From a virus: DNA of 29,577 bases. The notes under the pieces were generated by a model. That model worked only from the letters and a program-made list of their open reading frames with translations. It had not been told where the DNA came from and ran no database searches. The translations under genes and the position numbers were made by a program. The stretch spans positions 1-29,577 of the IMG/VR virus record IMGVR_UViG_3300028829_004034, one strand, 5' to 3'. Below, in pieces: positions 1,251 through 28,731 of the stretch (within the stretch, counting starts at the first letter, position 1; every line of letters begins with the position of its first letter).

Positions 1251-1675
1251 TGGCCGATGTAGAAATCATGAGAGATTTAATGGACCGCTCGGGCACCATC
1301 TCGACGGTCAAGGTGAAGGATACGCTCTTCTATGGGATCGAACGGCCGTGGCTGGAGAATCGATCTTCTATTAGCTGTATCCCCACGGGCGACTACGTAC
1401 TAGAGCCGCATGAGTCGGTGAAGTTCGGCAATACCTGGGCCTTCGTTGGCGGGTCGGTGTCGCACTGGCCGCATGAGAACAACGTGCGCAACGCCTGTTT
1501 GATCCATGTAGCCAACTGGTCCCATCAAGTGCAGGGCTGTCTAGGCTTGGGCCTGTCGCATGGGATCGATGATCGGGGCTTCTTGGTCAAGTCGTCAAGG
1601 GATGCGATGAGCCAGCTTCGCTCTATTTTAAAAGAAGATCAGACCTATACCTGTACGATCCGAGCGTTCGCTTGA
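1250..1675 (+). CDS. DUF5675 family protein (possible cell-wall enzyme)
   Basis: A 141-aa protein with the DUF5675 pattern: an IERPWLENR block (30-38), CIPTGDY (43-49), LIHVANW (84-90), QGCLGLG (95-101) and a final SSRDAM block. The family is frequent in phages near lysis or packaging genes. The spaced His86 and Cys97 in an IH...GC arrangement recall L,D-transpeptidase-like active sites, so a role on peptidoglycan is possible but unproven. An ATG also exists at 1241, but 1250 is preferred: AGG/GG bases at 1238-1244 then sit at a proper distance, and the start forms a TAATG overlap with the upstream stop. The gene ends in a TTGA overlap with the terminase frame. Confidence 0.7.
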   Translation: MADVEIMRDLMDRSGTISTVKVKDTLFYGIERPWLENRSSISCIPTGDYVLEPHESVKFGNTWAFVGGSVSHWPHENNVRNACLIHVANWSHQVQGCLGLGLSHGIDDRGFLVKSSRDAMSQLRSILKEDQTYTCTIRAFA

Positions 1676-2700
1676 AAGACTACGACTTAGCCGCGATAGC
1701 CGAAGTAGCGGCCTCGCTCTCTGTGCAACCTAAACTGCATGAGGTGTATCAGGCGCAGTTCCCCGACACCTATAGCCAGATACTCTCGCTACTATCCTCG
1801 CCTTTCTACCGCTGGTATCCGTTCAAAGACGAGAAGGGCGATCCCTTTGCTCAGTGGGGCTTCTGTTCATCCAACCACAAGAACAAGTGGGCGACGGCGG
1901 GTAACAGAGCGGGTAAGACGGTGTCCGGCCTGATGGAAGATGTAGCCGATTGTCTCATGCTGGACGTTATTAGCAAGCGGCCGACGACCCGGTATAAGGA
2001 TCCACCGCAGATGTGGATCGTATCAGACACCGAAGAGACAGCGGTGGGCATCGTGGAGCGCGGTATTGTCGACGATGTGCTCGGCTCGGACGAAACGGGC
2101 TTCCTATGGAACTTCATTAAAGACGAATGCACTTACTCGGAGAAGAACGGATGGGCCGATCATGCGATCCACTGGACGAACGGGGCGACGATACAAGTCA
2201 AGTTCAGCACACAGAAGCGGAACACGTTTCAGGGGAGGAAGCTGGACAAGGTGCATCACGACGAGGTCCAGCCCCGCGACATCTATGGCGAATGCGTGGC
2301 ACGCTTAGCCGACAAGAATGGGTTCTTCACGGGCACCATGACCCCAATCTATGACGAGAAGCGCGGCGGGGGTATCCCTTGGTTGTATGAAGAGCTTTAC
2401 CTGCAACGGGAGAAGAAGAATATTGAGTTTCACAACTGGTCTATGCTGGACAACCCGTATATCCCGCAGGAGGCAAAGGATCGTCTTATGGAGCAGTGGG
2501 ACGAGGATGAGATCGACGCGAGGGTTTATGGGCACTTTGTTCCTATGGGTGTTAAACTGGCGTTTCCCACCAAGCTGATCCGTATGCAACGGCACCTAAC
2601 CTCGGCCCCTTGTCATGACGGCCACCTTGAGATGATCGATGGCAAGGCAGTCTTCGTTGAAACCGTAGAGGGCGACTATGACGTTGCGAATTTGGGATAA
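1672..2700 (+). CDS. Terminase large subunit, ATPase part (split gene, upstream frame)
   Basis: This frame encodes the DNA-packaging motor ATPase. GNRAGKT (77-83) is the Walker A loop, and VHHDE (194-198) is Walker B with the catalytic Glu198. TGTMTP (about 221-226) fits the coupling motif. The start appears to be TTG at 1672, overlapping the DUF5675 stop; an ATG lies at 1738, but using it would shorten the N-terminus. The protein stops at 2698-2700 after a linker, exactly where full-length terminases continue into the nuclease domain. That domain follows in the next frame from 2678. Either two separate polypeptides are made, or the frames are joined by ribosomal frameshifting, or the assembly has an indel. 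The ATPase call is firm; the split is the open question. Confidence 0.88.
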   Translation: MKDYDLAAIAEVAASLSVQPKLHEVYQAQFPDTYSQILSLLSSPFYRWYPFKDEKGDPFAQWGFCSSNHKNKWATAGNRAGKTVSGLMEDVADCLMLDVISKRPTTRYKDPPQMWIVSDTEETAVGIVERGIVDDVLGSDETGFLWNFIKDECTYSEKNGWADHAIHWTNGATIQVKFSTQKRNTFQGRKLDKVHHDEVQPRDIYGECVARLADKNGFFTGTMTPIYDEKRGGGIPWLYEELYLQREKKNIEFHNWSMLDNPYIPQEAKDRLMEQWDEDEIDARVYGHFVPMGVKLAFPTKLIRMQRHLTSAPCHDGHLEMIDGKAVFVETVEGDYDVANLG

Positions 2701-3403
2701 GCCACGGAAGAACAAGACCTATGCGATCGGGGGCGACCCTGCCGAAGGACTAGCGCACGGGGACGATAGCGTATTAGAGGTGGTGGACTGTGACAATGGG
2801 TGGCAGGTAGCCGAACTACAGGGGAAGATTGAGCCTTTTGCTTTTGCTGAGCACGCCTACATGCTAGGTATGTGGTATAATACGGCGTTGGTAGGGATCG
2901 AATCGAACAAGGATGGGGGCGCGAACAGGGCGCTCTTAGAGCTACAATACCCCAATATCTACTACGAGCAGAAGGATACGGGCGAACCCTACGATAAGCA
3001 CACGATGAAGATGGGGATCAACATCAATCTCCACAACCGCCATCGGCTGGTCGCGCAGTGTCGGCACATGATGGAAGAGCGGTTGGCTAAGTGCCACTCA
3101 CGGGAGCTAGTAGCGCAGTTTGAGATATTCGTTCTGCGGAACCTTAAATACGAGGCGATACCGGGCGGTAAGGACGATCTCGTTATGGCATGGGTGATAT
3201 GCTGTGAGATGATGCGGGTAGCCTGTGAGCGTAAAGCTAGCTTAGAGAGCACGTTAGCGCCTATGTTCGATGGTCGGCCGATTGATCTTGAGTCAGAGGA
3301 AGACCTTGATGTCGGCCTGATTGATCGGCATATAGACCAAGCGCGGAAGAAAGAAGTGCGCATTAACGAAGACTACTCATCCACTGTAGAATCCATGATC
3401 TGA
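2678..3403 (+). CDS. Terminase large subunit, nuclease part (split gene, downstream frame)
   Basis: A 241-aa RNase H-fold nuclease domain that cuts concatemeric DNA during head filling. Acidic metal ligands are visible at Asp20 (IGGDPAEG), Glu75 (GIESN) and Asp166/Asp167 (GGKDDLVMAW). The first residues, LRIWDKPRK, match the linker strand that normally precedes this domain in one-piece terminases. The frame overlaps the ATPase frame by 23 nt. It has its own ATG at 2678 with GAGG (2668-2671) 6 nt upstream, so separate translation is possible. A TAG in this frame at 2666-2668 limits any frameshift to 2669-2697. No introns or mobile genes separate the two parts. Confidence 0.88.
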   Translation: MTLRIWDKPRKNKTYAIGGDPAEGLAHGDDSVLEVVDCDNGWQVAELQGKIEPFAFAEHAYMLGMWYNTALVGIESNKDGGANRALLELQYPNIYYEQKDTGEPYDKHTMKMGININLHNRHRLVAQCRHMMEERLAKCHSRELVAQFEIFVLRNLKYEAIPGGKDDLVMAWVICCEMMRVACERKASLESTLAPMFDGRPIDLESEEDLDVGLIDRHIDQARKKEVRINEDYSSTVESMI

Positions 3404-3413
3404 AGGAGGACCT

Positions 3414-3659
3414 ATGCAAGAGCTACTGACCCTATTTGCCGTGACCGCACCGCTGGTGCTGGTAATCGGCTTGCTATTACGCCAACTGAACTTCGAACGT
3501 GCGGAGCGAGAGCGCACAATGGCGGGAGTGTTAAGACTAGCTGAGACAGTGCGTTACGCCCAGCTATCTAATGAATCACCTCAAGGCTTCGATCCCGAGT
3601 TCCTCGATGGGATTCGGGACCAGCGTTCATCGACCGTCTATGATGTGGAGGGAGCCTGA
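3414..3659 (+). CDS. Small single-pass membrane protein, unknown function
   Basis: An 81-aa protein with one N-terminal hydrophobic segment (about residues 3-24, LLTLFAVTAPLVLVIGLLL). A charged helix rich in Arg/Glu (about 27-45) and a polar tail follow. It has a very strong ribosome site (AAGGAGG just before 3414). Topology would place a short N-terminus outside and the charged part in the cytoplasm, or the reverse. It lies between the terminase and portal genes, where phages often keep small accessory proteins. It could be a holin-like or spanin-like protein, but no second membrane segment or lipobox is present. No family is recognised. Confidence 0.7.
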   Translation: MQELLTLFAVTAPLVLVIGLLLRQLNFERAERERTMAGVLRLAETVRYAQLSNESPQGFDPEFLDGIRDQRSSTVYDVEGA

Positions 3660-9203: not shown

Positions 9204-9821
9204 ATGGGTGTAAGAGATAGAAACATAGACTGGCAACGCAAATCAGAATTCATCGACGCAGGGCGCTTTGCTCAGGCGGCGGCAACGACCACGCTGGTAT
9301 CTATGGATACTGGCGGTATGGTCATGACCGAAATGTCTACCTTCGGCTTCGGTGGTCTTCTTGTTGGGGCTACAGGCGACAAGGCAACCGCCTTAGATTT
9401 TAAGGTGGCAAGGGAAGCAGATCCAGCGCATGAGATTGGTGTTCGCGTATTATGGGCACCGAACGCGGCTGTATCGACTAGCGACGTGATTCTTTTTTCT
9501 GTTCACCGCGATCAGTTTGATGTAGGTGAACCTATAGTGACGGCGGCAACGGTTCTTGATACGGTTATCGCCGCACAGTCTCCAACAGCCACTACAGCTT
9601 ACGCGCTTCATCGGACTAGTCGTGGCGTTATAAACGCAGACACGTTCGACTACACAATGCGGCAAGGCGGGTTCCTCTTTGAGGTGAATGTTGGCACGTT
9701 CACTGGATTTGAGGTGACCGACGTTCTCTTCCTCGGTCTGGAAATCGACTACATGCCGCTCTTGTGTGAGAACTCTAACGAGACTATCGGCGCTCGTAAC
9801 TCAGATCTAGTGGCGGGCTAG
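9204..9821 (+). CDS. Probable minor capsid or decoration protein
   Basis: A 205-aa soluble protein with a beta-rich pattern (for example GGMVMTEMSTFGFGGLLVGA around 37-56 and FEVNVGTFTGFEVTDVLFLGLEID around 157-180). No catalytic motif is visible. A strong ribosome site (AAGGAG) precedes the ATG, suggesting good expression. It follows the smaller beta protein and precedes the glycosyltransferase, so both small proteins may be surface proteins of the head, and this one a possible target of the sugar transfer. That link is inference. I do not recognise the family. Confidence 0.6.
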   Translation: MGVRDRNIDWQRKSEFIDAGRFAQAAATTTLVSMDTGGMVMTEMSTFGFGGLLVGATGDKATALDFKVAREADPAHEIGVRVLWAPNAAVSTSDVILFSVHRDQFDVGEPIVTAATVLDTVIAAQSPTATTAYALHRTSRGVINADTFDYTMRQGGFLFEVNVGTFTGFEVTDVLFLGLEIDYMPLLCENSNETIGARNSDLVAG

Positions 9822-10910
9822 ATGAACTACGCACAGATCACCTATTCGCTACAGGACGCGGAACGGGGCTTGGATGCGGCACAGAAACGGGCCGTGCCCT
9901 GTTTCTTCCAGTGGCTTAATTGCTTCGGGAGTAAGTCGATCCATACCGTTCGTGAAGCGGATGATCTGAGCCAATATGATGTGGTCCACCTGCACTTGGC
10001 AAGCTTGACCTATGATCTTGCGCGTCAGGTGCGGGGCCGCATCGGTTGGAATGCAGACACCAAAATCGTTGTTTCGGTCGACTATGGCTTAGAGCTATGG
10101 CGGCACTGGTTGGGCAACCCTGAACAGTTGCTCGACAACCTATCCTACGCAGACATTATCACCGCACCAGAGCCCGTAGCCGCTGAGCTACTCGCGGATC
10201 TGACAGGGCGTGAAGTTCTGCTAACGACAAACCCTGCACCGATCAAGAAGCTGAGCCGCTCCAAGAGCGAGAAGCGCGATGGCATATCGGTCACGACGCA
10301 CCGCTACGATAAGAACGCCTATCTACCCTACTGGGTAACCCGCGACTATAAACCGTCGCATCTCTTTGGGCACACCGATGGGGATAAGCGCGAGGGCTTA
10401 GGGCGCACCGATAACACGACCCTGATGTATGATCGTGTGCATCCGATGTATGCGCACGAAGAGTATATGAGTAACCTGTCGCGTCGGTATGTGAACTTCG
10501 ATAGCTACACGGTGCACAGCCCGGGCCGCACGCAGATCGAATGCGCGGCAGTAGGTGTGCCCTGTATCGGCTACGAAACGTCATGGGCGCAGACGGTCTT
10601 GTTCCCTGCGCTTACCTTTAGGGTGAACGACCTGAACGGAGTGCGCAAAGCGATGCGCATGCTCCACGAAGACGAAGCATTTTACTACGATGTCATGCAC
10701 TATGCCTTTGAGAAGCTGGACTTCTTCGACATACCCGCTTGTGGTCAGCGGCTCAAGGCGGCACTGAAGGGACCCGAAGAAAATGATGATTCCGGACTGG
10801 AGCTTTGTGAAGAAGATGAAGGCGCACGATCCGTTGCTGGAAGTGCAGTGGATGGAGAAGAAGCAACGCTGGCTGATCTGTCGCCTACAGAACAAGCTCA
10901 ATCGACCTGA
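9822..10910 (+). CDS. GT-B-fold glycosyltransferase-like protein
   Basis: A 362-aa protein with features of GT4-like enzymes. DVVHLHL (53-59) is typical of the end of an N-terminal Rossmann strand. KIVVSVDYGLELWRHW and ADIITAPEPVAAELLADLTG (about 110-130) resemble the H-G-x and sugar-acceptor regions, and SPGRTQIECAAVGVPCIGYE (233-252), with Glu240, matches the nucleotide-sugar E-x-x-A-x-G-x-P motif of the C-terminal domain. It begins directly after the upstream stop. The classical recognisable domain ends near residue 320. The last ~43 residues are acidic and lie in the 128-nt overlap with the next gene, so they may be a secondary extension. Target could be virion proteins, DNA or host glycan; none is shown. 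Confidence 0.72.
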   Translation: MNYAQITYSLQDAERGLDAAQKRAVPCFFQWLNCFGSKSIHTVREADDLSQYDVVHLHLASLTYDLARQVRGRIGWNADTKIVVSVDYGLELWRHWLGNPEQLLDNLSYADIITAPEPVAAELLADLTGREVLLTTNPAPIKKLSRSKSEKRDGISVTTHRYDKNAYLPYWVTRDYKPSHLFGHTDGDKREGLGRTDNTTLMYDRVHPMYAHEEYMSNLSRRYVNFDSYTVHSPGRTQIECAAVGVPCIGYETSWAQTVLFPALTFRVNDLNGVRKAMRMLHEDEAFYYDVMHYAFEKLDFFDIPACGQRLKAALKGPEENDDSGLELCEEDEGARSVAGSAVDGEEATLADLSPTEQAQST

Positions 10911-11229
10911 ACGTATGACCATCGTTATGACGGTGGAAGGGCCGGGGCATACCTATCGGCCCCTAGATGATCGCACGCTGGATATGCTGAAAGCCTGTGA
11001 CCACCATCGGCGCGGCGCCAAAGCGGTCGTTGAAGAGATGATCGAAAAGCAACGCAAGGGCGAAGAGCTTGCCCACAAGCAAGCGCGAGATCAGATCGAA
11101 GACATAGCCCGTGACGTTACGCCCATCGGGGGCTACGTCGATGAGACTATGGGTTCGCGGAACGTGCCGAAGGAAGACTCACGGATCGCAGAGAAGAGAA
11201 GCTCTACTTACAAGACCAAGCCGAGATGA
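10783..11229 (+). CDS. Hypothetical head-tail region protein overlapping the glycosyltransferase gene
   Basis: A 148-aa basic protein whose first 43 codons lie over the 3' end of the glycosyltransferase gene in another frame. It begins MMIPDWSFVKKMKAHDPLLE and has a tidy alternation of Trp, Lys and hydrophobic residues (VQWMEKKQRWLICRLQNKL, about 21-39). A helical Lys/Glu-rich middle (about 68-105) and a flexible end follow. The N-terminal sequence looks like real protein, so the overlap is probably genuine coding in this frame. The ribosome site is modest (AAGGGA about 11 nt upstream). It lies just ahead of the adaptor gene. No family is recognised with confidence. Confidence 0.6.
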   Translation: MMIPDWSFVKKMKAHDPLLEVQWMEKKQRWLICRLQNKLNRPERMTIVMTVEGPGHTYRPLDDRTLDMLKACDHHRRGAKAVVEEMIEKQRKGEELAHKQARDQIEDIARDVTPIGGYVDETMGSRNVPKEDSRIAEKRSSTYKTKPR

Positions 11230-11230
11230 T

Positions 11231-12142
11231 ATGACACCGAATGAGATGTACGAAGAGTTCAACTCGCTTCTCGACACCGACGATGGCTTTCTCACGGGGG
11301 CTGAAGTATGGCGCAAGCTGGATGCGGCCAACCGCGAGATATTCCGCGTCATAGCGAAGCAAGACCCGACCTACTTTGTGCAGACGGAAACGATCACGCT
11401 CGTCGCAGATACCGCGCTCTATGACCTGCCGCTGAATGCGCGGCTCGGATCGCGCATACTGTTCACGGAAGATATAGCCAACGGCACAGAGATCACGCCC
11501 CTGCAAGAACTCAGATCGTTACTCGACTTCGATGCCCCGGGCATAGCGAACACCACCACCTCATACCACTTCATCATGGAGGGTAAGAAGGTGCGGATCG
11601 TCGGCAAGCCGGGCTCTTCAGGCAAGACGGTTCGCGTATGGTATATCCCCACCTTTGGTCAGATGATCGAAGGGGAGATCAGCGCGGCGACTACGACCAC
11701 GCTAACGCTCTTCACAGATGCCCCCAACTACACTACGAACTTCGGTAAGCCGGATGTGCGGGACGACTTCTATAACGGCATGGAAGTGCTCATCACAGAG
11801 AATGCGGGCGTAGGAGATCAGCGCACTATCACAGACTACACGGGGGGCTCGACCCTGACGATCACGGTCGATAGCGCATGGTCCGAAACGCTGTCGACTA
11901 CTTCGGGATCGAAGACGAGATTTGCTATCATGTCGCCTGTGCCCGAAGACTTTCACCAGATGGTGCCTATGCGCTCTGCTATCGATGGGGCTATCAAGAC
12001 CCGCACGCGGATCGATGATATATCGCGGGTCTACTATGGCTACTCAGGACGGCCCGGGCTAGAGAAAGGCTTGTTGGCTTGGCTTCAGAATAGACAAGAT
12101 GCTTCCCTCAACTTGGTGGTCCCAATGGATGTGAGCTACTGA
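11231..12142 (+). CDS. Probable head-tail adaptor (neck) protein
   Basis: A 303-aa protein taken from ATG 11231, two bases after the upstream stop. Upstream in-frame sequence merely overprints the previous gene. The N-terminal half is helical (MTPNEMYEEFNSLL, then EVWRKLDAANREIFRVIAKQ about 25-44), like adaptor proteins that stack under the portal. A beta insertion (about 145-235, TTTTLTLFTDAPNYTT) precedes a helical C-terminus containing AIDGAIKTRTRID. Adaptors of the SU10 or P22 gp4 type link portal to tail and are found at this point of the gene order. The assignment is by position, length and helix pattern, not by an invariant motif. Confidence 0.55.
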   Translation: MTPNEMYEEFNSLLDTDDGFLTGAEVWRKLDAANREIFRVIAKQDPTYFVQTETITLVADTALYDLPLNARLGSRILFTEDIANGTEITPLQELRSLLDFDAPGIANTTTSYHFIMEGKKVRIVGKPGSSGKTVRVWYIPTFGQMIEGEISAATTTTLTLFTDAPNYTTNFGKPDVRDDFYNGMEVLITENAGVGDQRTITDYTGGSTLTITVDSAWSETLSTTSGSKTRFAIMSPVPEDFHQMVPMRSAIDGAIKTRTRIDDISRVYYGYSGRPGLEKGLLAWLQNRQDASLNLVVPMDVSY

Positions 12143-12663
12143 TGGGCGCTCCCTCTCTGATTGATGCAATGTCCTCTGCTACGGGCGACTTCTACGCCGA
12201 AGCGGTGCGTGGGCAAGAAGTGCAGGGTGGACCGATAATGCCCCCTTCAGCGGGTATCAAGGCGCTCTTGCAAAAGCTGACGAAGAGTAATGCTGGAAGT
12301 ATTGGCCGTGAGGTGTTTTCAAAGGCAATCAAGGATCCCGACTTAGCCCACGTTCCCCGCAAGGAACTACTAGGCGACGTTGGAGGACGGGCGGGAACGC
12401 GGCTATCGAATACAGTTTTCAAACATACCCGACCAAGCCTAACCTCTCGCGGCATGGTAGATGATGGGGTGGAAGCGGCAAAAAGAAAAGCTAGGGGCTT
12501 ACTTCGCGGGAACGGCGGTGCACAAAAAGCGTTTCGCGGTCTACCCCTCGCCAACATCTTGAAGATGCTCAATCAGGGCGGTGAGAATATGGGCGATGCG
12601 ATCGGCATGGATAACGAGCCCCTCATGAAGCTGGGTCAAGCCCTGATGGGAAGCAAGCAATGA
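12142..12663 (+). CDS. Hypothetical protein of the head-tail module
   Basis: A 173-aa basic protein of unknown function. It has a flexible Gly/Pro-rich start (about 20-40), a Lys/Arg-rich middle that includes VEAAKRKARGLLRG (about 112-125), and a C-terminal segment with ANILKMLNQGG and LMKLGQALMG helices. Its ATG shares a base with the adaptor stop (TGATG) and its end overlaps the next gene (ATGA), so it is tightly coupled to both. It could be a minor virion protein that contacts DNA, given its charge, but this is inference. Confidence 0.6.
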   Translation: MGAPSLIDAMSSATGDFYAEAVRGQEVQGGPIMPPSAGIKALLQKLTKSNAGSIGREVFSKAIKDPDLAHVPRKELLGDVGGRAGTRLSNTVFKHTRPSLTSRGMVDDGVEAAKRKARGLLRGNGGAQKAFRGLPLANILKMLNQGGENMGDAIGMDNEPLMKLGQALMGSKQ

Positions 12664-14330
12664 TGGAGCGTGATGGTGCCTTTACGTGGGAAGAGAACGA
12701 TCTGCTCGGCGGGATCCGTCAGGACTCCACCGAATCGATCCGACGCTATCGGAAGATACAGAACCTACAGTTGTTCAATGAAGGGGCGATCACCAAAGAC
12801 CTCGGCTTACGCCAGCTAAGCGGAACGACGATTGGCTCTTCTACGCTCGACACACTCGCAGGGTATGACTGCCACTTTAACGATGAGACACAGATCCTCG
12901 CCGTGATACAGGAGGGGGCCAGCAATGCCGACCTCTGGACCTACGATAACAACACTAAGACCTTCTCGGCGCAGTCCCGCACGATAGCAAATGATGTGCG
13001 CGTAGATATGATCATGTTCGCTGATAAGCTCCACATACTAGATGGGGTCACGCTACAGACAATGACCTCGGGTAAGACATGGGCGACCCCGGGCGATGCT
13101 ACCTACTCCAACCCCTGCTTCTTTGGCGCCGTCTATGCGAACCGTTTGATTATTGCGGGGAATGCAACCTATCCCTACTCGTTCTTCCCTTCGGGGTTGC
13201 GCGACTCAGGCACATGGGATGCTTCACTGGCGGTTGATGTGACGGGCGCACAGGGTGAGCAGATCACCGCGTTAGGCACAATGGGACAGTTCCTTATCGT
13301 AGGGGGGCGCACTTTTACTCGCGCTTACTACCTCGGAACCGCGTCACCTCGGGATTGGGACTGGGATGAAATTAGTGCGTTGACGGGTCCTGCGCATCAT
13401 GCATCTTTTGTCTCAATCCCGTCTACGCATGGTCAGTCGGGCCGCAACGTCGCCTTCTTCTGGTCGGTCGATGGGCCGATGATGCTGATCCAAGAGGGGG
13501 AGGGCATACCGAAGATGGTGAGCTTAGTGCCACCGATCGTCAAGGCGGTGCGTGGGCTCGACCACCAAGACCTAGATGGGCTCGCTGTTGATCGCTACTC
13601 GGATGTGCAGGGGGTCTACGTGCCTGAGTATGATGAAGTGCGCTTCTCAGTAACAAAGAAGACGACCTTCGCAGGGGGTGTCAGCAAGCACGACGAGTGC
13701 TACTGCCTTAACTTAACCAGTGCGCTTCGATCCGCGCAGGGTCAGCAAGGCGCTTACCCCTACTGGCGCGTGCGAAACAACACCAACAAATCGTTACCTG
13801 TGCAGACGATCTTCCAAGCGCGTATGCACCCTGATAGTCACCTGCCATCCAATGTCGGGGTTGTGCGGTGTCTCTGCGCACAAGACGGTTATGTCTATGA
13901 GATGGATTCACGGGCGCAGTATAAGGATTCAATAGAAGGAACTGAATATTCTATATCGATGCTTGCGCGTAGGGATGGGTATGATGGAGTCGAAGACGGG
14001 GTTCGCAATCACACGAAGTCGGCACGGCAGGTTTATGCACGAACAACCCTCGTAGGGAACTACGATCTATTCATTAAGCTAGTCGCAGATGGTGGCGCTC
14101 GAGAGAAATCAAAGAGCGTGGACCTGTCAGGCGACCTCAATGAGTGGGGTGATTCACGCGATTGGGGCGATGGCACGCTCTGGAACGCAGGGGACTTCGT
14201 GAACGCTAGAGCAACCCCTGCGGTACTAGGCAAGAAGTTTGATATAGAGTTTTACGACAACGGGAATATCGAAGGTGAATTTCAGATGAACTCATTTAGT
14301 ATACTTGGATTCGTAGAGGATAGACGATGA
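12660..14330 (+). CDS. Tail hub / packaged-DNA stabilisation protein (P22 gp10-like)
   Basis: A 556-aa beta-rich protein with repeated blade-like units (for example LDTLAGYDCHFNDETQILAV about 62-81, MIMFADKLHILDGVTLQTM about 120-138, ALGTMGQFLIVGGRTFTRAY about 204-223). This suggests a beta-propeller-like tail hub as in P22 gp10 (472 aa). Such proteins close the portal-adaptor channel and hold packaged DNA until ejection. It lies between adaptor and tail fibre genes as expected. The start at 12660 (MMER) forms an ATGA overlap with the upstream stop. The last ~100 residues (with DLSGDLNEWGDSRDWGDGTL) may be an added domain contacting the fibre. The call is by pattern and position. Confidence 0.65.
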   Translation: MMERDGAFTWEENDLLGGIRQDSTESIRRYRKIQNLQLFNEGAITKDLGLRQLSGTTIGSSTLDTLAGYDCHFNDETQILAVIQEGASNADLWTYDNNTKTFSAQSRTIANDVRVDMIMFADKLHILDGVTLQTMTSGKTWATPGDATYSNPCFFGAVYANRLIIAGNATYPYSFFPSGLRDSGTWDASLAVDVTGAQGEQITALGTMGQFLIVGGRTFTRAYYLGTASPRDWDWDEISALTGPAHHASFVSIPSTHGQSGRNVAFFWSVDGPMMLIQEGEGIPKMVSLVPPIVKAVRGLDHQDLDGLAVDRYSDVQGVYVPEYDEVRFSVTKKTTFAGGVSKHDECYCLNLTSALRSAQGQQGAYPYWRVRNNTNKSLPVQTIFQARMHPDSHLPSNVGVVRCLCAQDGYVYEMDSRAQYKDSIEGTEYSISMLARRDGYDGVEDGVRNHTKSARQVYARTTLVGNYDLFIKLVADGGAREKSKSVDLSGDLNEWGDSRDWGDGTLWNAGDFVNARATPAVLGKKFDIEFYDNGNIEGEFQMNSFSILGFVEDRR

Positions 14331-19203: not shown

Positions 19204-21840
19204 ATGGCTGAAGAAAACAAGCTCATAGACGAATTTGGAAACGTAGATCAGGAGCTAGAGGCTCTCTTTGCACTGCTCTCTACGCAAGTAGATGATCCTA
19301 ATCAACCTGCGAACCCCTACTACGAACAGATGCAACGGCTTAATGCCGCGCTGAGTGGGGATGATAGTTCTGTTCAGCAGTCTACGGGTGCGTTTGCCGA
19401 TGTGATCAAGGATTGGGGAGCGAGAGCCGCTGACGCTCAAGAGCCCACAGTGATTGATGATGTCGTGTTGACGAGTAATCAAGAGCAACAGGTTCAATTT
19501 GATGAGGTACTTCGTCAACTGAACCTAGCTCTTGGTAATCAGACCAATAGCCCAGAATACTATCAGGGCATTGGTGAGGGCGACGTTACAGGGACTTCTA
19601 CTGAAACAACCACAACCAGCACCTCTGGTGGAACCACGACAACGGGAACCACGAACGGTCTGCCTACTGAGTTTCAGAACTTCCTTACGACCATTCAGCA
19701 ACTATCACCGGGAGTCACCGATGCGCTCGGTGGGTTGGGTGGAATAAGCGATAGCATAGGTGGGATCAGCGATGGGCTGGGCACCTATGGCTTAGGCGGT
19801 GAGCTTGAGAAGCTTCTTGGTCAGGCTGGTGGATTGAGTGATTCGCTCGTAGGTGAAGGGGGCTTAGGTCAGGATATCGGTGGCTTAAGTTCAGCCCTTG
19901 AAGGGCTCTTCGGGGACGCGGAAGGTATAGGCACTGCCTTAGAAGGCATCAACTTCGGTGGACTTGAGGGGCAGGTTAGTGGGCTAGAGCAACGCCTATC
20001 TCAGATACCTGGGCTCGGTGGGCTAGAGCAAGGGATTGGTAGCTTAGAATCGCGCCTTGGCAACCTCTTCAGTGGCATACCCAATGAGCTTGCTAGTCCC
20101 ACGGGAACGAGTGGCTTCAATACAAACAGTCTCATCAGTGGACTCAATGACTTCTTCTCGGGCGATTCGTTTGCAGGGGATGTGAGCAATTACTTCTCGG
20201 GTGATGGTGGTGGTCAGCTTGGTATCCCTGACGGGTTACTCTCTAGCCTTGGTGGAGTAGAGCAGGGCTTAGGCAATGCCTCGCCCCTCATGAGCAACCT
20301 GCTCTCCGAACTGCGAGGCTTTAATCCGAGTGATGGCTTCGCAGATAGCTTGAGCAGTTTCTTCAGTGGAGAATCTAATCCGCTGAAGAATCTTACGGGT
20401 GGAGCGGCGATACCTGACAACTTGAGTGGCTTGCTTTCTGGCTTGACGCAAGAGCTATCGGGCTTCACACCTTCGATAACGAATATCAATAGTGGGCTAG
20501 ACAGTCAGCAGATGGGTCAGATATTCTCTGACCAGCTAACGTCAGGTCGCTTCAATGCCGAACTGCAACAGATGTTTCGTGATTTCCAGCCTGATATCAA
20601 TGCTAGGCTAACGGACTTCTTCGCAGGGCCGAACAACCCACTAGCTAACATTAGTGCAGGTGGTATAAGTAAAGACGACTTGGCGGGTGCGTTCGCAGAG
20701 ATACCGGGCTTTGACAATCTACCCGCGATATCTACGAACTTCAGTGATGTGCTCTCTCAGCTTGATCCGAGCCATTTGTTCGGGGAAAACTTCACTCAGG
20801 GTATTCGGGGCGCCTTGGGCATAGAAGAAGGGCAATCCTTTGAGGGTCTACTGAGTGAGATGCTTGGGAATGGGGGTGGCCTTGGTGGTGTTCAGCCTAC
20901 GGGTTCCTTGCCCATGACGGACGATCAGATTAAAAGCTTCATTGAGCAGACGATTGATGGGTCAGCACAGATCTCTACGGGTGCCGCTCTAGACGCAGGG
21001 GACGTCGGTGGACTGACAGACGACTTTACGCTAGGGGCGGCACAGGATGAGTTCGGTGACTTCATCTTTGACCAAGCGATACTGGATCAGCCAGAGATCA
21101 CAGACTTCTCTGACTTCCTGAAATTCCCCCTTATGGATGGGCTGGTTAATGCCTTGGGCACAGCCAACCCCTTTGATACGCGTAAGCAAGAGCTAACGGC
21201 TGGGCCACAGGCACGCATCGATCAGCACTTCGATGAGGCGCGGGAGAACCTAGAGCATCGCTTTGGTGTCCTTAACAACTTCGGTTCACCAGCGGCGGCG
21301 GCACAGATGCGCAAGCTAGAGAATGACAGGGCGCTAGCTAATCTGGATGTCGATAGTCAGTTTGGTCTACAGGCAGCGCAGTCGGATGAGATGCTACGGC
21401 GCAATCGCTTGAGCGATCTATCCTCGGCACTGGGCTCAGAGTTCAGCCGGACACAGCAGTCGATGAATCAGCAAGCGCAGTTCCAGCAACAGGCCGATCA
21501 GGGACTATCCAACTTTATCGCTCAACAGCAAGCGGCGTACATGGATCCACTCAAGTTCCAAGATGAGGGGTTACGCTTACAGCTTGGTGGGCTTGGCTCT
21601 AGCCTAACGCCTAACGTAGGGGCGGCGACAACGGGGCTAGGTAATATCAGCACAGCGGCGAACAACGCGATGGCATCCAATAGCAACTCTATCGGCAATG
21701 CCGTGGGTGGGTTGGGCGATGCGTTTGGTCAAGCCTTCACGCAGGGGACCCAGCCAGCCGTGCAATCCTTGCCCCAAAATAAACCGCTTACTACTCCCCT
21801 TGGAGTGGCTCAGCCGTTCGGTCAGTATCCAACGCAATAG
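19204..21840 (+). CDS. 878-aa Gly-rich internal/structural virion protein
   Basis: A large protein. Residues ~165-560 are Gly/Leu/Ser-rich with degenerate repeats. One series is LGGL/GGLE units (for example GGISDSIGGISDGLG). Another has four motifs of the type FFSG or FFAG near 317, 330, 386 and 471, two followed by NPL. This region would form a long flexible or helical membrane-active stretch. The C-terminal ~170 residues are helical, Gln-rich and coiled-coil-like (QARIDQHFDEARENLEHRFG, then AQFQQQADQGLSNFIAQQQA). The mix of Gly-rich and Gln-rich helical domains fits an internal virion or DNA-ejection protein. No peptidoglycan-cleaving motif was seen. Name and role are inferred from position and composition. 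Confidence 0.6.
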   Translation: MAEENKLIDEFGNVDQELEALFALLSTQVDDPNQPANPYYEQMQRLNAALSGDDSSVQQSTGAFADVIKDWGARAADAQEPTVIDDVVLTSNQEQQVQFDEVLRQLNLALGNQTNSPEYYQGIGEGDVTGTSTETTTTSTSGGTTTTGTTNGLPTEFQNFLTTIQQLSPGVTDALGGLGGISDSIGGISDGLGTYGLGGELEKLLGQAGGLSDSLVGEGGLGQDIGGLSSALEGLFGDAEGIGTALEGINFGGLEGQVSGLEQRLSQIPGLGGLEQGIGSLESRLGNLFSGIPNELASPTGTSGFNTNSLISGLNDFFSGDSFAGDVSNYFSGDGGGQLGIPDGLLSSLGGVEQGLGNASPLMSNLLSELRGFNPSDGFADSLSSFFSGESNPLKNLTGGAAIPDNLSGLLSGLTQELSGFTPSITNINSGLDSQQMGQIFSDQLTSGRFNAELQQMFRDFQPDINARLTDFFAGPNNPLANISAGGISKDDLAGAFAEIPGFDNLPAISTNFSDVLSQLDPSHLFGENFTQGIRGALGIEEGQSFEGLLSEMLGNGGGLGGVQPTGSLPMTDDQIKSFIEQTIDGSAQISTGAALDAGDVGGLTDDFTLGAAQDEFGDFIFDQAILDQPEITDFSDFLKFPLMDGLVNALGTANPFDTRKQELTAGPQARIDQHFDEARENLEHRFGVLNNFGSPAAAAQMRKLENDRALANLDVDSQFGLQAAQSDEMLRRNRLSDLSSALGSEFSRTQQSMNQQAQFQQQADQGLSNFIAQQQAAYMDPLKFQDEGLRLQLGGLGSSLTPNVGAATTGLGNISTAANNAMASNSNSIGNAVGGLGDAFGQAFTQGTQPAVQSLPQNKPLTTPLGVAQPFGQYPTQ

Positions 21841-21851
21841 GAGCGTAGCAG

Positions 21852-22868
21852 ATGGCAATCAACTTAGGTCAAGGCAGTCCGCTCAAGTCGATCATGAACA
21901 TGCTCGGCCAAGCAGGGGCACAGCATACGGCACAGGCTAACCAGCGAACGAACCTGACCGAGCAGGGGTTCGACATAGCACCGCAAGAGCTACCCGATAA
22001 CCCCTTAGCTAAGATCATGAGCATCCTTGGTGGACCACAGTCTCTTGATGGGCGCGTCACGCCGAACGCTACACACCCTTCTAATGTAGCGCTAGAGAAA
22101 CAGCGCATGGTCAATGAGTCCTTTGCGAACACAGCGCGTCAGCAGAGTGAGACAGCACGGCTAGCGGAAGAAGGTCGACAGAAGAGGCACGTAGAGACGA
22201 TAGCCGCCGATGAGCGCAGAGAGAATAAGCGCGTAGAAGCGGAAGCGAAGAAGCAACAGCGGATCCATCTCAAGGAATTGCGCACAGAGATGATTGAGGC
22301 GCAGAAGTTTATGGCGACCTTAGCGCAGAAGAATCAGCTAACGCCCTCTGAGATGAAGGATGCACTCGACCTGACGACAGAGATCGACAATCGCATCGAA
22401 GGGATCGCGGAAGGCACCATGCAAGATTGGCTATTGCCCGATTTCTTTCCCGGCGGTGAAGAGTTCGTTATTGGCAAGCTAACCGACAAGACAAGCATCT
22501 GGTATAACCCCGGTGCGGCTCGACAGATCGAAGAGCTACAGCGAATGAAATCTGATCTGATGAACACGGTGTCTCAGTTGCCTAAGCTCCGTGGAACGCA
22601 GACAGGAGCAACGAGCAACAACCCTGACCTAGAGATCGAAGAGACACTCGACGTGGTTGCCGATACGCTAAGCCAACAGGCAATGAGCGGGACACAGACC
22701 TCACTCGGTCGTATTGGAGCGCCCGCTAATCTCTTTGGTGGGGGCACTAATAATATAGAAAGCATCTTAGCGAAGCTGGCTAGTCAGAAAGAAGCGCAGG
22801 GACAGCGTGTTATGCAACAGACGATGAGCGGTTTACCGCAACATATGTTGGAAGAAGAGGGGTTCTAG
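21852..22868 (+). CDS. Internal virion protein, helical
   Basis: A 338-aa protein. The N-terminal ~80 residues are disordered. A long charged helix runs from about 80 to 165 (Glu/Arg/Lys heptads such as ARLAEEGRQKRHVETIAADE). A helical region continues to about 235, and a Gln/Thr/Ser-rich tail ends at MLEEEGF. AGGAG lies 8 nt before ATG 21852. It sits between the 878-aa and 1249-aa proteins and is read in the same direction with minimal gaps, so the three probably form one ejection complex. No family is recognised. Confidence 0.6.
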   Translation: MAINLGQGSPLKSIMNMLGQAGAQHTAQANQRTNLTEQGFDIAPQELPDNPLAKIMSILGGPQSLDGRVTPNATHPSNVALEKQRMVNESFANTARQQSETARLAEEGRQKRHVETIAADERRENKRVEAEAKKQQRIHLKELRTEMIEAQKFMATLAQKNQLTPSEMKDALDLTTEIDNRIEGIAEGTMQDWLLPDFFPGGEEFVIGKLTDKTSIWYNPGAARQIEELQRMKSDLMNTVSQLPKLRGTQTGATSNNPDLEIEETLDVVADTLSQQAMSGTQTSLGRIGAPANLFGGGTNNIESILAKLASQKEAQGQRVMQQTMSGLPQHMLEEEGF

Positions 22869-27671: not shown

Positions 27672-27748
27672 TGGGGTGAACGACGGGACTTGAACCCGCA
27701 ACCTTCTGAGTCACAGTCAGATGCTCTATCCAGTTGAGCTACGTTCAC
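27672..27748 (-). tRNA. tRNA-His (anticodon GTG), CCA encoded
   Basis: A full cloverleaf on the minus strand. The acceptor GTGAACG pairs with CGTTCAC, the D stem is GCTC/GAGC and the anticodon stem TCTGA/TCAGA carries loop CTGTGAC (GTG at positions 34-36). The T stem GCGGG/CCCGT holds TTCAAGT. The 3' end is C73 followed by an encoded CCA. The base before the acceptor is T, so the G-1 that marks tRNA-His is not encoded. The gene lies between the ribbon-helix-helix and Rad52-family genes. Confidence 0.93.
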
Positions 27749-28167: not shown

Positions 28168-28731
28168 TTAATCGAACGCGGGCTCTCCGCTTTCGATTGA
28201 ACCTGTGATGGGGGTAGCTTCCACTACATGTTCGTTCAGCTTGACAGTAAGTTTATCGGGGCCACGTTCTATCGTGACGCTCTCCATGACCTCGCCTGTG
28301 TCCTTGAAGTGTGCCATGATTGCCTTCTTGTCGGGGGTCGTTGTGGTCTTCTCATTGAGAAGGTTAAGGTAGCCCTCTTTCACAGCCCACGATTTGAAGG
28401 TATCGGGGTCTTCGATCTGGACCGACTCGCGGCCCATGACGATAGAGACCTTGCCATGCACTAGCTCTAGCTTCTTTGATCGGGTCGACTCCATATAAGC
28501 GCGTAGGGCGTGTTCGTGCCATGCTCGCTTCTTGGCGATCTTGATTAGGCGCAGGTCTTCCCATAGACTGATTTTATCGATCTCTGCTTTGGCGTGGACC
28601 TTGACCTGACGTTCTTGTTCCATCCAATAGTGCAGATGGCGAAAGGCATCTTCCGCATCAGATGTGTTCGCCACCATTGGCGCTTCCTCTTCATAGACAT
28701 AATCTTCCAGCGGTTCAATCGTTTCCATCAT
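28168..28731 (-). CDS. Gam/Gp157-like protein (host nuclease inhibitor candidate)
   Basis: A 187-aa protein. The N-terminal ~30 residues are acidic (EPLEDYVYEEEAP). A long helical hairpin follows (about 35-88), with DAFRHLHYWMEQERQVKVHA and LIKIAKKRAWHEHALRAYME. A small beta domain follows (LELVHGKVSIVMGRESVQIE about 87-106, then FKSWAVKEGYLNLL). This order, coiled helices then a KxxxGxxxxR-type beta domain, is that of phage Gam-like and Gp157-family proteins, which protect DNA ends from host nucleases. The ATG at 28731 overlaps the XRE gene's TGA, and GGAGAGTG lies just ahead. It pairs in function with the Rad52-family protein. Assignment is by architecture. Confidence 0.65.
   Translation of the reverse strand: MMETIEPLEDYVYEEEAPMVANTSDAEDAFRHLHYWMEQERQVKVHAKAEIDKISLWEDLRLIKIAKKRAWHEHALRAYMESTRSKKLELVHGKVSIVMGRESVQIEDPDTFKSWAVKEGYLNLLNEKTTTTPDKKAIMAHFKDTGEVMESVTIERGPDKLTVKLNEHVVEATPITGSIESGEPAFD

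Follow-up and report, generated by a model that had tools for sequence, protein, structure and literature searches.

In some models of viral packaging motors, such as that of T4 gp17, the nuclease domain of each subunit moves or grips the DNA as it is translocated, a role that presupposes a tether to the ATPase domain. Terminases encoded by two genes have been described for Arthrobacter phages of cluster AY, most of which carry the ATPase and the nuclease as separate terminase genes according to two reports (PMC11920828; PMC12820723). For instance, gp2 and gp3 of phage BillyTP (PP978841) overlap by 17 nt and the second gene lies in the +1 frame. A search of the open literature on split terminases uncovered only the cluster AY reports. 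Here, we describe a terminase locus in the record of an uncultivated virus (phage) of 29,577 bases; the whole stretch of DNA that was analysed is referred to as the window. The locus is best explained as a genuine two-gene terminase of chimeric origin that was split once and whose ATPase and nuclease are separate polypeptides, and we consider this explanation highly probable.

The ATPase (motor) gene was recognised from its open reading frame (ORF) and motifs at positions 1672..2700 of the plus strand; it starts with TTG and encodes 342 aa. The ORF contains, on the same strand, the Walker A motif TAGNRAGKT (1894-1920), the Walker B motif VHHDE (2251-2265) and the coupling motif GTMTP (about 2332-2346), which are kept in the ATPase alignments, and it matches the PHROG terminase large subunit with an E value of 2e-12. 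Residues 293-342 (2548..2697, plus strand) form a C-terminal tail, which would correspond to the linker judging from alignments and a low-confidence model. The nuclease gene of the RNase H type (2678..3403, plus strand; ATG start, 241 aa) lies in the +1 frame and overlaps the ATPase gene by 23 nt (2678..2700, plus strand). Its acidic residues D20, E75 and D166/D167 (2735-2737, 2900-2902 and 3173-3178, plus strand) are invariant in an alignment of 24 sequences. A Shine-Dalgarno-like GAGG (2668..2671, plus strand) is located inside the ATPase gene 6 nt before ATG 2678, and a TAG (2666..2668, plus strand) closes the nuclease frame upstream of this start. An initial annotation had already described the coordinates of the two frames and their overlap, the Walker motifs in the first frame, the metal-binding acids in the second, the private ribosome site and the in-frame TAG, all of which are borne out by the sequence. 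It had also read LRIWDKP as a linker strand, and this stretch indeed aligns with LRVYDRP of a fused relative (L104, see below) and with LEIFEKP-type strands of fused homologues. The E values of the ATPase profile against the first ORF and of the nuclease profile against the second are around 1e-171 and 1e-124, respectively, with profiles that include the window's own sequence. The start sites of both ORFs are kept among the nearest relatives, in which the start methionine of the nuclease occupies the same position. Thus, the observation of two ORFs is far beyond chance.

Portal and major-head genes are located downstream of the terminase pair, whose neighbourhood is conserved. Directly downstream of the nuclease gene, nearly all split members encode a small hydrophobic and probably membrane-bound protein, which has 81 aa in the window (3414..3659, plus strand) and homologues 3' of the nuclease across the clade. 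Near the right end of the window, the minus strand encodes a Mu Gam-like end-protection protein (28168-28731; E 1e-20). A tRNA-His is predicted at 27672-27748 of the minus strand, where a minus-strand block encoding a recombinase-like protein ends. Most proteins encoded at 9204-14330 and 19204-22868 have no PHROG match, including some of more than 500 aa (12660-14330 and 19204-21840), and the virion of this group is therefore largely uncharacterised.

The comparison with related genomes proposed in the initial annotation was made by scanning IMG/VR with each half and with alignments. The clade relatives are uncultivated contigs, none of which is certified complete. Two genes were found in 36/36 other clade contigs (counted by contig name) where both parts are visible, which is the opposite of the uninterrupted close relatives that the annotation had named as speaking against its reading. 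The ATPase identity to the window ranges from about 99% down to about 43% among these contigs. The phage collection contained no member of the split clade from a cultured phage or host genome, the best nuclease match being about 38% identical, and a search of 84,980 genomes yielded only two hits, both belonging to the V-type terminases defined below. The proteins show the features of a large terminase subunit (TerL), namely ASCE-type ATPase motifs and a nuclease of the RNase H fold in which three acidic positions are conserved. However, the two domains are not joined in one polypeptide in the window or in any of the 36 contigs.

Sequence profiles and structural models indicate that the two halves are of different terminase lineages, the ATPase being of the Arthrobacter/LUZ24 type and the nuclease of the Vibrio-podophage/T4 gp17 type, without a significant cross-match. 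The ATPase matches fused terminases of the Arthrobacter phage Jasmine, the Microbacterium phage Shocker, LUZ24 and a Megaira phage, and the nuclease matches those of Vibrio podophages, a 595-kb uncultured phage and T4-like phages; we labelled these two groups J-type and V-type, respectively. When compared with 54 J-type and 23 V-type sequences, the split ATPase profile scored 1e-48 against the J-type and 0.07 against the V-type, and the split nuclease profile 9e-48 against the V-type and 0.06 against the J-type. The J-type and V-type profiles matched each other weakly (0.01 for the ATPase and 0.03 for the nuclease, with probabilities under 4%). Moreover, the Walker A motif reads GNRxGKT in the split clade and the J-type, and xRQLGxxT in the V-type. 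The dual affinity could be exaggerated by uneven rates of change. The nearest structure to the nuclease model (mean pLDDT 79.5) is T4 gp17 (E 6e-13), and the nuclease profile matches the RB49 gp17 nuclease (E 1e-14). A sequence search of solved structures with the ATPase found none, and its fold was therefore compared via a model (mean pLDDT 74.6), to which the D6E and P74-26 terminase ATPases are nearest (E from 4e-8) and T4 gp17 ranks only 26th. The J-type match of the ATPase extends to the vicinity of residue 292 (about FVPMG). The subsequent tail, LAFPTKLI...GHLEMIDGKAVFVE, resembles by eye the V-type linker YFPTSKVF...GELFKNEKGEVNFLE, with a profile score that is not significant, and the crossover may thus lie at the ATPase-linker boundary. 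In a study of the phage Adele, the trees of terminase ATPases and nucleases did not strictly agree, and transfer at the level of subdomains was suggested (PMC12846349).

Both families also occur in a single uninterrupted ORF of 605 aa on L104, an uncultivated 39-kb contig (IMGVR 3300030392_001562), with E values of 6e-75 for the split-clade ATPase family and 4e-54 for the nuclease family. L104 is the only fused chimera seen; neither this contig nor the different lineages of the halves had been noticed in the initial annotation. In the ATPase tree, which was rooted on 55 fused J-type rows, the split members form one clade (100/96) and L104 is sister to all of them. In the nuclease tree, which has several long branches and a bootstrap that is not fully settled, they fall on one side of a branch (100/98) and L104 is placed among the fused rows. 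The state 'split' changes once in each tree. Since L104 represents the same chimera in the unsplit state, the domain swap probably preceded the split, and the simplest history consists of the swap and one later split; re-fusion was not seen. The distances of the ATPase and nuclease genes are highly correlated (Mantel r = 0.95, 16 genomes, 0/5000 permutations), which indicates that the two genes travelled together. An independent exchange of the two genes inside the clade was considered and is not seen given this correlation. A second terminase was not found in seven longer relatives, which are not certified complete.

Based on these observations, we propose that a J-type-ATPase terminase took up a V/T4-type linker and nuclease by recombination, giving rise to a fused chimera such as L104, and that a single later break just before the strand LRIW divided this chimera in the ancestor from which the clade descends. 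Two adjacent and probably translationally coupled genes would give the ATPase and the nuclease as distinct polypeptides, the nuclease being translated from ATG 2678 by means of the ribosome site within the ATPase gene, at its 3' end. The two cistrons are likely expressed by coupled translation, and separate ribosome sites would permit unequal amounts of the two proteins. These may bind each other and the portal and join there non-covalently; the ATPase would pump the DNA and the nuclease would cut it at initiation and termination. That this pair packages and cuts at the portal is predicted from the gene neighbourhood. In fused homologues, the strand at the position of LRIW directly follows two linker strands. 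As low-confidence strands are predicted at residues 317-322 and 325-330 of the ATPase and the model of the nuclease opens with a strand at residues 2-5, pairing between the ATPase tail and the nuclease is plausible, and the separated linker strands may still pair between the chains. Given that each protein retains its full set of catalytic residues and that their genes are inherited together, the two most likely work jointly as a terminase without a covalent link. We lean, with some reserve, towards a motor and a nuclease of different lineage that join in trans as separate proteins, possibly in unequal numbers.

Separate genes would also permit the nuclease to leave the motor, in which case the ATPase alone would package the DNA and the nuclease would do another job. 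A precedent is phi29, which packages unit-length DNA without the need for terminase cleavage, and in which the nuclease function is dispensable (PMC11476376). However, the nuclease gene of the split clade stays beside or near the ATPase gene and is inherited together with it, the protein retains all catalytic acids, and the longer relatives yielded no further terminase nuclease. A nuclease outside the motor is therefore unlikely, and a two-part terminase acting as a unit is preferred.

The initial annotation had offered three readings of the locus: separate motor and nuclease polypeptides, programmed frameshifting and a sequencing indel. The first is supported by the clade relatives, which are all split and vary in frame. 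The nuclease lies in the +1 frame with an overlap of 23 or 29 nt in the window, L004, L005 and L017, with a 1-nt gap in L007 and L008 and with a 352-nt gap in L025. It is in the +2 frame, with TAATG or a 4-nt ATGA/GTGA overlap, in L006, L009, L010, L022-L024, L027-L030 and L078. Genes in the same frame either abut directly (TAGATG in L020) or are separated by gaps of 18 to 477 nt (L031, L033-L035, L037, L073-L075 and L077). In several lineages, the gap holds a complete ORF, usually with overlaps of a few bases with the adjacent genes. These ORFs encode 116 aa in L025, 86-92 aa in L031/L033/L034 and L035, and members of a family of about 163-196 aa in L073/L075 and L097 (L073:4131-4622, L075:3375-3866, L097:2563-3153), of which L038 has a copy elsewhere and not between the genes (L038:1821-2417). 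A weak DUF5681 similarity and the position suggest, but do not prove, that this family is a small terminase subunit. A Shine-Dalgarno 4-mer precedes the nuclease start by 3-13 nt at 19/26 junctions, compared with 19% of the upstream positions in the same genes, a count that is descriptive because the sequences are related. The ATPase gene often ends with Glu-Ala-Ala (GAG GCG GCA), in which the Shine-Dalgarno site is contained.

A programmed +1 ribosomal frameshift at 2669-2697 would produce one full-length terminase, either alone or alongside the separate products. The window junction taken alone could allow such a shift, as the frames overlap and LRIWDKP would carry the protein on, and the same +1 frame is present in L004, L005 and L017. 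However, other members would need a +2 shift or stop-codon readthrough or, with complete genes between the two parts, have no possible route. Moreover, no known slippery motif is recognisable by inspection of positions 2669-2697, and the nuclease has its own conserved start, usually with a ribosome site. Neither one direction of shift nor an overlap of constant length is conserved. Given the varied frames and gaps and the inserted ORFs, no single recoding event fits the whole set, and programmed frameshifting was rejected as very unlikely. An intron- or intein-interrupted TerL was also rejected because the genes overlap in the window and ordinary ORFs occupy the gap in most relatives that have one; scanning L025, L077 and L166 against Rfam gave no match. 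Finally, metagenome contigs do have one-base errors, and a one-base change would join the frames, but a sequencing or assembly indel in an intact gene is practically inconceivable since the junction is identical in an independent contig (3300028844_003681; L003), which is 99.7% identical to the window over 7,171 bases with 19 substitutions and 0 gaps, and since the 36 other contigs are split as well, many of them in ways beyond any single indel.

Terminases of the J-type that are split elsewhere were also encountered. In L161-L163, L165, L166 and L168, the break lies inside the ATPase domain, immediately after the coupling motif TFTPL/TATPL. The frames mostly overlap, for example L162:1720-2469 and 2405-3244, and the two parts are about 300 nt apart in L166. 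It appears to be another type of terminase split that arose independently.

A clade with separate ATPase and nuclease proteins, sometimes with genes between them, makes it possible to ask directly whether the motor depends on the tether and on a 1:1 ratio. If the two-gene terminase works as proposed, a covalent linkage of the domains would be unnecessary for packaging and the nuclease would be recruitable and exchangeable. The chimera and its unsplit sister record a domain swap in TerL, and trees of whole TerL proteins, a standard phage marker, can thus mix two histories. Furthermore, gene callers may annotate just one half of a split terminase.

Among the known systems, the fused V-type terminases (Vibrio phage 252E42.2 and the uncultured phage LR756511) and T4 gp17 share the nuclease family with the window; however, they are single polypeptides and their ATPase is not detectably of the same family. 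Conversely, the fused J-type terminases (Arthrobacter phage Jasmine, Pseudomonas phage LUZ24 and the Megaira phage) share the ATPase family, but they are also single polypeptides and their nuclease is not detectably that of the window. L104 has both families, and differs in being fused and in its longer linker. The cluster AY phages, represented by BillyTP, resemble the window in that the ATPase and nuclease domains are encoded by two consecutive overlapping genes. However, their proteins belong to other families (phrog_19179, phrog_21277 and phrog_9), and the split-clade profiles gave no cross-hit with them at an E value of 1e-2. Thus, the split in cluster AY is independent of that in the window clade. 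Moreover, inserted genes or mixed ancestry are not reported for cluster AY in the accessible parts of the two papers (PMC11920828; PMC12820723). As far as searched, a clade-wide terminase split in an uncultivated phage group is new, and so are the distinct origins of the two halves, with L104 as the unsplit sister, and the genes inserted between them.
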